Shown: positions 5,667 to 47,334 of the stretch, piece after piece | How positions within the stretch are numbered: position 1 is the first letter of the stretch | Layout: every line of letters starts with the position of its first letter | Assembly: GCF_001895925.1 (NCBI RefSeq) | Contig: NZ_MPPI01000001.1 | Span: forward strand, 252,099-316,098 | DNA length: 64,000 nucleotides | Origin: Phormidesmis priestleyi ULC007 | GTDB lineage: Bacteria; Cyanobacteriota; Cyanobacteriia; Leptolyngbyales; Leptolyngbyaceae | Reading direction: 5' to 3' | The notes under the pieces: model-generated | Database searches by the model: none | What the model saw: the letters and a program-made list of their open reading frames with translations, nothing else | What the model was told of the DNA's origin: nothing | Translations under genes and position numbers: made by a program

Positions 5667-5758
5667 TATATCAATCCCCAATGAATTGTGGGATGGACAT
5701 CTTGCCCGTACAGGCTGGAAGCCTGTCCCACTCTCACACCTGAAATAGGATTGCTATA
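5667..5758. repeat. Interspersed repeat family C, copy 2
   Basis: Inverted copy of the element at 105-194: it reads GAATTGTGGGATGGACATCT and ends GAAATAGGATTGCTATA. It lies between ndhK (leaving leftward) and the 3' end of the SWIM gene. Nothing else is seen in this 254-bp gap apart from a possible ndhK promoter. Confidence 0.75.
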
Positions 5759-9849: not shown

Positions 9850-9932
9850 GTTCACACCAACGCCTGCTTTGACTCTATCAAACCCTCGCAGAATGGCACA
9901 CTTTTTTTGTCCGTTGTTGCATAGAGAGATGG

Positions 9933-9995
9933 GTTAGGGGCAATCCCCCTATGGTTGTCCTCCGTCAGGGGTATGTACGGGGGCACTATCCCTAC
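9933..9995. repeat. Interspersed repeat family B, copy 2
   Basis: A 63-bp copy beginning GTTAGGGGCAATCCCCCTAT and ending ACTATCCCTAC, with matching inverted ends carrying a few mutations. It lies between the divergently oriented 5' end of the SNF2 gene and the 3' end of the secreted protein gene. Confidence 0.75.
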
Positions 9996-10038
9996 AGCCA
10001 CATCCCCTCATTCTGCAACGTAAAAAATCATTTTGTTA

Positions 10039-10972: not shown

Positions 10973-11386
10973 ATGAAGCTGACAGTCTTTTTTAATGGTC
11001 AATTTTGGGAAGGTGTCATTGAGGTCGATCACGACGGCGTATTAAAAGCGGGACGACATCTATTTGGTGCAGAACCCAGCGATATTGAGGTGCTGTCGTT
11101 TGTGTCAGACAATCACGCCACAACCTTAGTTCAGCAAACTCAATGTACGGGTGTGGCTCCAACTGATCATAAGCCGATCAACCCCAAGCGACGATCGCGC
11201 GAGGCGGCTAAAGAAATGGCAGTGCGAGGAGTCTCCACAATGGCTCAAATGGTCTTACAGCAAGAGCTTGAGCAACACAAAAAAGAATCAAAGAAGCGCT
11301 CAAAAGCAGAAGACGAAGCCAAGGAAGCCGAAAAACGACGACTGAGCCGCGAAAAAGCGAAAGCACGGCATCGCGGAAAAGCTTAA
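10973..11386 (+). CDS. yjdF: YjdF-family protein (DUF2992)
   Basis: A 137-residue protein. The N-terminal 45 residues (MKLTVFFNGQFWEGVIEVDH, then LKAGRHLFGAEPSDIEVL) match the YjdF family. The C-terminal 60 residues are a highly charged Lys/Glu/Arg coiled-coil-like tail. The start at 10973 is chosen from the family consensus; the frame extends upstream to 10865. In Firmicutes yjdF genes are often preceded by an aza-aromatic-sensing riboswitch, but no such structure was recognised here. The biochemical function of the family is unknown. Confidence 0.85.
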   Translation: MKLTVFFNGQFWEGVIEVDHDGVLKAGRHLFGAEPSDIEVLSFVSDNHATTLVQQTQCTGVAPTDHKPINPKRRSREAAKEMAVRGVSTMAQMVLQQELEQHKKESKKRSKAEDEAKEAEKRRLSREKAKARHRGKA

Positions 11387-11444
11387 CTTAGATCTTGCAC
11401 CTCTGGTATCTGGACGATGAGAACCTGTGGTTCATAGCATTCTC

Positions 11445-11750
11445 CCACCCTGAACTGAAGTTCGGGCTAACGGGGAAAGTCCGTTAACGTCAGTTCGACA
11501 GAAGTGATTGGCTACGATTGTGAATCCGGGAAGCCCCCTAAATCCCCCATTCTGAGGGACTTTGAACCGGAAATCTTGGCTCAAAGTCCCCCAATTTTGG
11601 GGGATTTAGGGGGCTGAAGCCGCTCAAAACGAAACGAAAAGCCTCGTCGAACTCACGTTCCGTTAAAACGGACTGAAGAACTAGCTGGGACTCGCTTTTA
11701 GTCCGTTTTAACGGACTTGAACTATTAGCCCGAACTTCAGTTCAGGGCGG
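11445..11750. repeat. Palindromic repeat family E, interrupted by a family A MITE
   Basis: The ends form a 26-bp near-perfect inverted repeat: the left starts CCACCCTGAACTGAAGTTCG and the right ends CGAACTTCAGTTCAGGGCGG. A second inner inverted repeat involves AAGTCCGTTAA and TTAACGGACTT. Without the inserted family A element and its duplicated target the unit would be about 127 bp. It fills most of the 413-bp gap between yjdF and clpB, where no gene is seen. Confidence 0.8.
11488..11658. mobile_element. MITE family A, copy 1
   Basis: This 171-bp element is flanked by the exact 8-bp duplication TCCGTTAA at 11480-11487 and 11659-11666. Its ends are inverted (CGTCAGTTCGAC against GTCGAACTCACGT). 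The interior contains the family core, CCCCCTAAATCCCCC followed by GGGGGATTTAGGGGG. It carries no coding sequence, so any movement must have depended on a transposase elsewhere. It is inserted into repeat E. Confidence 0.88.
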
Positions 11751-11799
11751 GTCAGCAGACTGACTCAGAATGCTGCAAGATTTCAGTTAAGCTTCACGT

Positions 11800-14454
11800 T
11801 TATGAAACGATCGGAGATAACTGGGCGGTGACCGTTTTTTTGTTAAATGACAGTTTACCCTTTACTAGATCAACCAAAATAGTATCGCCATCGACAAACG
11901 TATTTTCGAGCAGTTTGGTGGCGATCGGGTTCTGCAATTCTCGCTGAATGGCCCGCTTTAACGGACGAGCACCATACACCGGGTCGTAGCCCAAATCAGC
12001 CAGGTGATTTCGAGCCGCCTCAGTCAGTTCGATCACGATCTTTTTGTCGGCTAACATTCCCTGAATGCGTTTGAGTTGCAGCACGACAATTTCGCCCAAC
12101 TCAGCCCGACTGAGCGGATGAAAGAGAATCGTGTCGTCAATGCGATTGAGAAACTCAGGACGAAAATGCTTTTGCAGGGCAATCATCACGCGCCGTTGCA
12201 TCTCGTCATATTGAGAATCATCGCCCGCAACATCGAGAATGTGTTCACTACCGATGTTGCTCGTCATCACAATGACCGTGTTGCTGAAGTCGATCGTTCT
12301 GCCTTGAGAATCGGTGATTCGTCCGTCGTCCAACACTTGTAGCAAAATGTTAAACACATCGGGGTGAGCTTTTTCGACTTCATCCATCAACACAACCGAG
12401 TAAGGTTTGCGTCGCACTGCTTCCGCGAGTTGTCCTCCTTCTTCGTAGCCGACGTATCCGGGAGGTGCCCCAATCACTCGCATCACCGAGCTTTTGTCCA
12501 TATATTCGGACATATCCATTCGCACCATTGCATCGTCGGCATCAAACAAAAATTGCGCTAATGCTTTGGCAAGCTCAGTTTTTCCGACCCCTGTCGGCCC
12601 CATGAAGAGGAATGATCCGATCGGGCGACCGGGATCTTTCATGCCCGATCGAGCGCGACGAATGGCGGCTGAAACTGCTTCGACGGCATCTTGTTGCCCG
12701 ATGACTCGGTGATGCAGATGATGTTCTAAAGTCAATAATTTTTGACGCTCTGACTCTAGCAAGCGATTGACTGGAATGCCCGTCCATTTAGCGACAATTT
12801 CAGCGATGTCAGATTCAGAAACCTGCTCTCTGAGCAGCGTCGAGCCATTGGTCTGCATTTCTAGCAGTTGAGCTTCTTGAGTTTCTAAACTACGCTGAAC
12901 GGTGCTGAGACGATCGTATTTCAGCTTGGCAGCCGTGTTCAGATCATAGGCACGTTCGGCTTGGTCAATTTGCACCTTGAGATGTTCTTCTTCTTCTTTG
13001 AGATGGTTAATCTCTTCTAAAATTTGCTTCTCATTTTCCCATTGAGAACTCAGCCCTTGCTGCTTGTCTCCCAACTCTTCAATCTCTTGATTAATGCGCT
13101 CTAACCGATCTTTTGAGGGACGAAATGCTGCCCCGGTTAACGTCGCCTTGCCTTCCCCTTCTAGAGACAGTTTCTCCATTTCTAGCTGTCTCAAGCGCCG
13201 TTCGGTCGTCTCTAACTCGACGGGTTTTGAGGTGATCTCCATTTTGAGTTTGGCGGCGGCTTCGTCTACAAGATCGATCGCTTTGTCGGGCAAGAAGCGA
13301 TCGGCGATATAGCGACTCGAAAGCGTTGCCGCAGCGACCAGGGCAGAATCGGTAATTTTCACGGCATGGTGAACTTCATAGCGATTCTTGAGTCCCCGCA
13401 AAATCGAGATCGTGTCTTCGACTGAGGGTTGCTCAATCAGAACCTGCTGAAATCGTCGCTCTAGGGCGGCATCTTTTTCGATATATTTGCGATATTCATC
13501 CAGCGTGGTTGCCCCAATACAGCGCAGTTCGCCTCGTGCCAACATCGGTTTCAAGAGGTTGCCAGCATCCATGTTGCCTTGAGTGGCTCCGGCTCCGACG
13601 ACGGTGTGAAGCTCGTCGATGAAGAGTACGACTTGCCCATCGGAGTTGATTACTTCTTTGAGAACCGCACGGAGACGGTCTTCAAATTCGCCGCGATATT
13701 TTGCTCCGGCGATTAGAGAACCCATATCGAGCGAGATCAAGACGCGATTTTTCAACGATTCGGGCACGTCGCCGTTAATGATCCGTTGAGCGAGTCCTTC
13801 GGCGATCGCAGTTTTGCCCACGCCTGGTTCACCGATCAACACCGGATTATTCTTCGTCCGGCGAGACAGCACTTGAATGACGCGACGAATTTCTTCATCT
13901 CGCCCAATCACCGGATCGATCTTTCCGGCTTTCGCCTTCTCAGTGAGATCTTGCCCAAATTTTTCTAGCGCCGAGTAGCGAGATTCGGGGGTTTGATCGG
14001 TGACTTTCTGACTGCCCCGCACCTCTTTAATCGCGGTTTCTAATTTTGCGGTATCGAGATTAAATCCGCGAAATAGCTTCATCCCCAACCGAGGATCGTT
14101 AGCAAACCCGATTAAGAAATGCTCGATCGAGATAAAGTCATCTTGCCAATTGTTGCGCGCCAGCTCAGAGCGATCGAGCAGCGTATCTAAATAGCGACCC
14201 AAATAAAGCTGTTCAGTGTTGCCCACTTTGGGCTGTCGTTTGGCATAGTCATCGACCTGCTGACCCAACTGCTGCACATCGACCCCAGCCTTTGTGAGAA
14301 TCTTATTGGCCAGCCCATCTTTCTGCTCGATGACGCTGGTGATCAGATGCTCAACTTCTAAGTTTTGGTGTTTATAGCGCCGGACAACATCCTGTGCTTG
14401 TACGATCGCCTCCCATGCTTTGTCAGTAAATTTGCTTGGGTCAGTGGGTTGCAT
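11800..14454 (-). CDS. clpB: ATP-dependent disaggregase ClpB
   Basis: An 884-residue Hsp100 chaperone that extracts polypeptides from aggregates together with DnaK. Order: Clp-N repeats (1-150), first AAA+ module with Walker A GEPGVGKT near 205 and DEAAAKLK near 395, a coiled-coil middle domain (about 410-530), and a second AAA+ module with GPTGVGKTE near 608. The C-terminus has the conserved [17 protein letters not shown]. The coiled-coil M domain distinguishes it from ClpC. Cyanobacteria usually have ClpB1 (heat-induced) and ClpB2 (essential); which this is cannot be settled from one sequence. No CIRCE element was noticed upstream. Confidence 0.95.
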
Positions 14455-16241: not shown

Positions 16242-16266
16242 TGCCTAACGAGGGGATGAAATGGCT

Positions 16267-16328
16267 GTAGAGGTAGCGCCCCCGTGCCTACCCCTGACGG
16301 AGGGCAACCACAGGGGGATTGCCCCGAC
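16267..16328. repeat. Interspersed repeat family B, copy 3 (inverted)
   Basis: A 62-bp copy in reverse orientation: it begins GTAGAGGTAGCGCCCCCGTG and ends GGGGGATTGCCCCGAC. It is placed just 3' of gloA. Confidence 0.75.
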
Positions 16329-16354
16329 CCAAATCATTGCCAAAAAACGTTTCT

Positions 16355-24697: not shown

Positions 24698-24706
24698 TAA
24701 ATTAAC

Positions 24707-24769
24707 GTAGGGGCAATTTTCCCTGGTTTGCCTGGTGGGTGTGGGTAGGCACGGGGGCACTACCCCTAC
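24707..24769. repeat. Interspersed repeat family B, copy 4
   Basis: A 63-bp copy starting GTAGGGGCAATTTTCCCTGG and ending GGGGGCACTACCCCTAC. It begins one base after the right target duplication of MITE A copy 2, so the MITE apparently landed at its edge. Confidence 0.75.
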
Positions 24770-24786
24770 GGTCAACCAAAATTTAT

Positions 24787-34753: not shown

Positions 34754-34771
34754 CGGACGGGTTCACATTGG

Positions 34772-34833
34772 GTAGGGGCAATCCCCCCGTGGTTGCCCTC
34801 CGTCCGGGGTAGGCACCGGGGCGCTACCCCTAC
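34772..34833. repeat. Interspersed repeat family B, copy 5
   Basis: A 62-bp copy starting GTAGGGGCAATCCCCCCGTG and ending GGGGCGCTACCCCTAC. It occupies the gap between tic22 and prmC. Confidence 0.8.
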
Positions 34834-34902
34834 AGTCATTCCTTCTTTCTGCAACGCCGAAATAGCGCTGTCTCACGGGTCATTCTTAAAGAGCAAAAAC
34901 AG

Positions 34903-47098: not shown

Positions 47099-47248
47099 GT
47101 ATAGAAAGGTGGAAGAATCTACATTAAGCCTCTATATAGTTACCACACAGCCAATTGTTTGTTTTAACAAATTTCTATAGAAACGCACTGAAATGGGACT
47201 CAACCGAGTTTGAGCGAGGTTAAGCTGACGACGCGATCGTGACACTAC

Positions 47249-47334
47249 AGCAATCTCATTGCAGTTGTAAGAGTGGGAAAGGCTTCCAGCCTGTACGGGC
47301 AAGATGCCCATCCCACAATTCACTTAGGATTGTT
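47249..47334. repeat. Interspersed repeat family C, copy 3
   Basis: Same orientation as copy 1, with GGCTTCCAGCCTGTACGGGC in the interior and inverted ends (AGCAATCTCA, TTAGGATTGTT). It ends ten bases from the tRNA-Pro gene. Confidence 0.75.

Follow-up and report, generated by a model that had tools for sequence, protein, structure and literature searches.

The usual view is that MITEs are degenerate copies of a single insertion sequence, and classification goes by their ends. Bacterial MITEs, among them the cyanobacterial Nezha, are short, lack an ORF, carry terminal inverted repeats, are flanked by target repeats and are present in many intergenic copies. The elements described here are alike in all of these respects, but differ in that a single structured core is common to several end types. 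Tiny repeats of Nostoc, termed SDR, were reportedly described by Elhai et al. in 2008 as having a length of 21–27 nt, showing compensatory changes and often lying inside minitransposons. Units of that length would be unlike the present core, which spans about 116–151 nt and contains four hairpins; some of the core hairpins may nevertheless be SDRs, and an overlap with that work is possible.

REP and REPIN sequences also form mirrored hairpin pairs and are distributed in Cyanobacteria and Chloroflexi (PMC3733652, PMC3116915), with GTAG repeats reported in both phyla (PMC3733652) and REPINs in Nostoc (PMC3116915). The cores differ from them in lacking an enrichment of GTAG or CGTC, in having four hairpins instead of two, and in being surrounded by ends of DDE-type insertion sequences. 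TIMEs of the Tn3 family are likewise non-autonomous and mosaic in structure, but are reported to retain Tn3-type ends around varied cargo (PMC4133298), whereas here the cargo is constant and the ends vary. In the literature screened by title and the start of the abstract, no report of one core under different ends was found, which is not proof of absence; studies of SDR, Nezha or Anabaena insertion sequences may overlap. Should the core persist while its ends are replaced, naming MITE families after their ends would conceal a second line of descent, and a route must exist by which non-coding DNA switches the enzyme that moves it. The covariation of the hairpins further raises the question whether the core serves itself or the host. 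It is the covarying core with exchanged ends that is of specialist interest, while the nested pair is an ordinary event, well resolved.

Two nested elements between DUF2992 and clpB

The window, i.e. the whole stretch of 64,000 nt that was analysed (G000:C30:252099-316098), derives from a cyanobacterial genome of 5.68 Mb. Within it, the gene of a DUF2992 protein (PF11208; 10865–11386, forward strand) and that of a ClpB-type chaperone (11800–14454, reverse strand) converge on a gap that is almost wholly occupied by two nested mobile elements, E and A. The whole of element E, including the inserted A, extends over 11387–11786 and measures 400 bp with A and 221 bp without it. It is delimited by the terminal inverted repeats CTTAGATCTTGCACC (11387–11401, forward) and GCTGCAAGATTTCAG (11772–11786, reverse) and by 4-bp TTAA target repeats at 11383–11386 and 11787–11790, which agree with the repeat statistics of its end class, class I. 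The DUF2992 gene stops at the left edge of E, with the TAA of the left target repeat as its stop codon, while the clpB stop codon (11800–11802, on the opposite strand) lies 13 nt from the right end. No ORF of at least 80 aa was found in 11387–11786. In uninterrupted copies of E the homology extends outward to CTTAGATCTTGCACC and its inverted partner, and one such sister copy, L032, is 224 bp long with a TTAG repeat. A preliminary description of the locus had taken 26-bp inverted repeats at 11445 and 11750 as the ends of E. The inverted arms exist (11444–11487 against 11708–11751, 44 nt, 86% complementary), but they lie inside the element, whose TTAA-flanked ends are at 11387 and 11786.

For the 15 class I copies with both ends, the 4-bp target repeats are identical at 0.88 of positions compared with 0.65 after shuffling, and are exact in 10 of 15; TTAA, TTAG and CTAA are common, and TTGA, TCTC and TAAA occur too. 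IS701 is defined by a 4-bp YTAR target repeat. In the same genome, the 1.3-kb element L071 (C65:2456-3750) has CTCAGATCTTGCAC ends around an ORF for a 398-aa transposase with a DDE_Tnp_1 match above the Pfam cut-off. Among NCBIfam families it matches IS701 best (65.7 bits; cut-off 150), yet no family of that collection is reached at its cut-off, so that the naming of the presumed parent of E stops at a loose “IS701/IS4-like.” Ends like those of an insertion sequence of this genome that bears a transposase, the 4-bp repeat and the many copies together identify E, on sequence grounds, as a non-autonomous transposon (MITE). A further class I insertion sequence, L072 (G000:C38:1-2450), harbors a gene for an IS982-type transposase (167 bits, over the cut-off) and represents nesting among full elements.

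In G001, a sister genome of the same genus, clpB is 95% identical over the queried part, no E lies behind it and a different neighbor is found instead, while a truncated relative of the DUF2992 gene is sited elsewhere. The clpB locus of G001 would thus fit an absence of E, yet does not provide a clean empty site. With respect to a possible excess of E between convergent genes, 6 of 21 E positions are convergent, 11 lie between genes of the same direction, three are divergent and one falls within an ORF; among the gaps of the window, 6 of 31 are convergent.

Element A, a MITE of 172 bp (11487–11658), sits at the tip of the second hairpin (H2) of E, so that the earlier statement that A splits an inner stem of E holds, with direct repeats on either side. 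Its terminal repeats are ACGTCAGTTCGAC (11487–11499, forward) and GTCGAACTCACGT (11646–11658, reverse), and an inner palindrome with the arms AGCCCCCTAAATCCCCCA and TGGGGGATTTAGGGGGCT lies at 11532–11615. In the flanks of 36 copies of the genome, the seven middle positions of nine agree in 78–92% of copies each, and none do so beyond, while the outermost two are nearly fixed as A and T and are part of A's own ends. The target repeat of A is therefore 7 bp, TCCGTTA at 11480–11486 and 11659–11665, and of the 8-bp duplication described before, the duplication stands but its eighth base belongs to A. At least 40 places of A were scored in the genome, from 346 first-look candidates. An autonomous parent was not found among pairs of A ends, with the first 100 motif places of 381 covered. 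Three pairs were rejected as the parent, each explicable by a chance end motif or a diverged A copy: C52 and C54, whose ends are 3–4 kb apart and of which C52 encloses a dnaK-like gene, and C43 (530 bp), which contains an ordinary ORF. In another genome, a class IV MITE with an E core, L171 (G014:C1:731750-732450), holds a further MITE in its left arm. The palindrome of this insert is A-like, whereas its ends (GAGAGCATGTCAC) are different, and its repeat, CTCAAGTC, measures 8 bp; the core of A may thus be modular, too.

After removal of A and one copy of its repeat, the window E can be aligned with the uninterrupted copy L032/L092, and the core restored in this way shares 90% identity with L092, which belongs to the L032 element. 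Among 29 other A copies (L002–L030) whose flanks were inspected by eye, only L019 sits in an E copy (L062), at a different place, the tip of the first hairpin. Because uninterrupted E copies exist and the only other E copy, among those examined, that carries A received it separately, the alignments place E before A at the window locus, as had been proposed, and A appears as the younger element at both nested loci; A as an integral part of E was not encountered among these copies. The order may fail at other loci, given L077, where E-type ends bound a short element between CCCCC-palindrome arms. The preliminary description had also suggested that hairpin DNA is a preferred target of A. Across the 29 A target sites, the folding rank relative to neighboring DNA averaged 0.60 and none of the 29 fell into the lowest 5% (KS p 0.30), which does not support such a preference; both insertions into E are at a hairpin tip, and the AT-rich TTA target is located there as well.

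Structure of the four-hairpin core

The core of E spans 11444–11751 with A included (matches of the core model R1 fall within C30:263542-263849) and amounts to 129 nt once A and one copy of its repeat are subtracted. In the consensus structure it consists of four hairpins: H1, CCCTGAACTGAAGTTCGGG (11448–11466); H2, split by A into AGTCCGTTA (11478–11486) and AAACGGACT (11666–11674); H3, AGTCCGTTTTAACGGACT (11700–11717); and H4, CCCGAACTTCAGTTCAGGG (11729–11747). Full cores in sister copies measure 116–151 bp. The uninterrupted copies foreseen earlier thus exist, while the length of 127 bp expected for them follows only from the former bounds (306 bp minus A and one repeat copy).

Both-sided changes were seen in 11 of 28 base pairs in an alignment of 14 cores (A1), from which the window copy and L033, a partial core, are excluded, and in 21 of 28 pairs in an alignment of 52 of 83 cores from 12 genomes (A2), chosen by eye to exclude near-copies. 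In A2, 91.4% of cells are paired, although the alignment is poor in part of H4, where one helix has 71% of its cells paired. The covariation score of A2 is 0.375, compared with 0.142 for shuffled alignments and at most 0.073 when the structure is slid. By contrast, for the alternative of a single long stem like that of L092 the score is 0.139 (0.121 shuffled), and for a linker stem it is 0.150 (0.116 shuffled). Since these stay near the shuffled level, the structure kept by evolution is that of four short hairpins rather than one long stem. No relevant Rfam family was found above the gathering score, the 16 core loci returning the RNase P gene alone and the window stretch nothing.

These scores bear on the original picture of the locus, in which 26-bp ends close a single 127-bp palindrome, E, and A is drawn to hairpin DNA. 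In the window copy the long inverted arms do exist, and A did split hairpin tips in two E copies. However, the long stem hardly covaries, the target repeats of E lie outside the proposed ends, past more element sequence, and A shows no preference for hairpins, so that this picture is very improbable.

The hairpins may be maintained by structural selection or by the repair of imperfect palindromes. Template-switch correction is known for quasi-palindromes, and several copies of E form almost perfect palindromes, as would be expected if the covariation were mutational, arising from template-switch repair, and not functional. The long stem, which should be equally correctable, shows little covariation compared with the short hairpins; this is not decisive, since short hairpins may be better substrates, and a mutational origin is accordingly a serious possibility, if not the favored one.

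Cores under different ends

In a first survey, 62 of 83 cores had at least one end matching one of six end motifs. Under stricter limits and with eight motifs (null rate at most 0.7% per 76-nt stretch), 32 of the 83 carried the same class at both ends, 26 had one recognizable end and 24 none, while a single core combined two classes (II and III, which are mutually similar). Where both ends were found, the end begins about 25–59 bp from the core. Class I ends, CTNAGATCTTGCAC, are associated with 4-bp repeats, and class IV ends, CTGRTTGACTGACAAA, with 9-bp repeats (identity 0.74 against 0.31 shuffled, 8 of 20 exact); for class IV, a full-length element, L165, encodes an IS4-type transposase (135.7 bits, cut-off 152). 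Class II ends, GAGGATGTTTGAAAAG, have 3-bp repeats that are exact in 8 of 13 cases, an excess that is small against shuffles keeping the TNA bias, as the targets are all TNA-like. Class III ends, GGGCGTGTTTTAAAC, suggest a TA repeat, from five copies only, and class VI is represented by one end only, in five copies. Two further end motifs were found in other genera, and one core, L112 of G021, bears the same ends as A but lacks a matching target repeat. By comparison of these copies, cores are capped by at least five kinds of ends with differing target repeats. No autonomous parent of classes II and III was found, in that no pair of ends lay at insertion-sequence distance among the motif places listed; the place C104 contained no ORF that could be taken for a transposase, and the ORF at C82 matched no NCBIfam family. 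Three class II MITEs of G006 (L166, L167, and L168) are only 55–82 bp long, with the core reduced to a remnant or gone.

Cores with different ends are 85–90% identical over about 130 nt. The window core, which has class I ends, is 0.896 identical to the class III core L103 of G001, while the ends of the two do not align. In a tree of the 38 of 84 cores with both ends classified (127 columns), the window core and L092 fall together with the three class III cores from G001, at a support of 95/81. The tree requires nine changes of end class, a number that is not exact given the few well-supported branches, and class I as one clade is rejected (p-AU 0.0044). The conclusion that the ends were exchanged, and have not merely diverged, rests on the identity between the window core and L103, the grouping with class III cores, and the nine changes together with this rejection.

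The same identities bear on the possibility that the cores are unrelated, i.e. independent look-alike palindromes picked up by a permissive model. AT-centered hairpin palindromes are common, and weak matches do occur in unrelated bacteria. Against this stand the 85–90% identity between cores with different ends, the unpaired linkers common to the aligned cores, and best scores above 100 bits in a covariance-model search that matched 16 of 23 genomes of the family and left 7 of 23 empty, so that common descent is far more credible and independent origins can be given next to no weight.

Origin and spread of the core

The account considered probable is that E is a MITE with an independent four-hairpin core that is capped by various ends, into which A was nested later. 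E would have entered between the convergent DUF2992 and clpB genes, directly after the DUF2992 stop codon, with an IS701/IS4-like transposase of the L071 type presumably acting on it in trans, and A, with its different ends and 7-bp target repeat, would later have entered the tip of the second hairpin. More generally, the palindromic core could serve as cargo for any transposase acting on short ends. As a preferred guess, new matched ends may be acquired by recombination or template switching at the hairpins, involving neighboring or nested MITEs such as A in E; intermediates of such an exchange, with two end classes, are nearly absent (1 of 83 cores).

According to the main rival, the core moves as a unit in its own right, in the manner of a REPIN or an SDR, and was inserted into existing MITEs of different families. 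The sharp edges of the core across end classes would be expected of such an insert, and GTAG-15 REP dimers inserted in long palindromes are described for Anabaena variabilis (PMC3733652). Furthermore, half an E core lies directly after a decayed Y1 transposase gene (L302; G006:C1, near 1776063). However, GTAG is present in 24 of 84 cores, compared with 33 after shuffling, and CGTC in 8 compared with 31. A RAYT link was not found either: around the 8 Y1 transposase loci of three genomes, a full core is absent to a distance of about 1.5 kb, and weak matches occur at two of these loci, one being a half core. An insertion of the core would also predict MITEs of the same families that never held it, whereas the short MITEs examined that lack a full core mostly retain pieces of it (L166, L167, L043, and L077), which favors deletion, with L168, in which no piece was found, as a possible exception. 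Insertion of the core into existing MITEs is therefore judged unlikely, and the reading of a core that changes its ends is preferred. A bolder extension of it is put forward tentatively, as possible rather than probable: the core, of about 120–130 bp, could be an independent genetic parasite, maintained throughout cyanobacteria and perhaps in Chloroflexota by adopting the ends of active insertion sequences from at least five transposition machineries, with nests such as A in E as raw material.

In the window genome, the covariance model of the core gave 67 matches at an E-value of up to 1 on both strands, or 33 places by count, and the matches in the family extend over 13 of 18 genera. A pattern scan of one hairpin returned at least 115 stretches, mostly from cyanobacteria among those listed. 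The core model was run on 80 of these at least 115 loci, with 38 places inspected, and full-length cores were found in many of the 80 stretches, including Fischerella, Microseira, Desmonostoc, Symploca, and Coleofasciculus. Phages gave no core match, and plasmids only short matches in five records. A few metagenome bins, of Chloroflexota and other groups, gave weaker matches, for which misbinning is possible. Two Anaerolineales bins, which are GC-rich Chloroflexota bins, contain core-like hairpin arrays of at most 70 bits (L221 and L190), and L221 has inverted ends of its own that are unrelated.

The window contains further repeats. A family around GGGTAGGCACGGGGGCGCTACCCCTAC is intergenic and occurs at 679–817, 9929–10002, 24703–24776, and 34767–34840, as well as inverted at 16242–16332, and a third family, around CCTGTACGGGCAAGATGCCCATCCCAC, is found at 91–189, 5672–5758, and 47232–47332.
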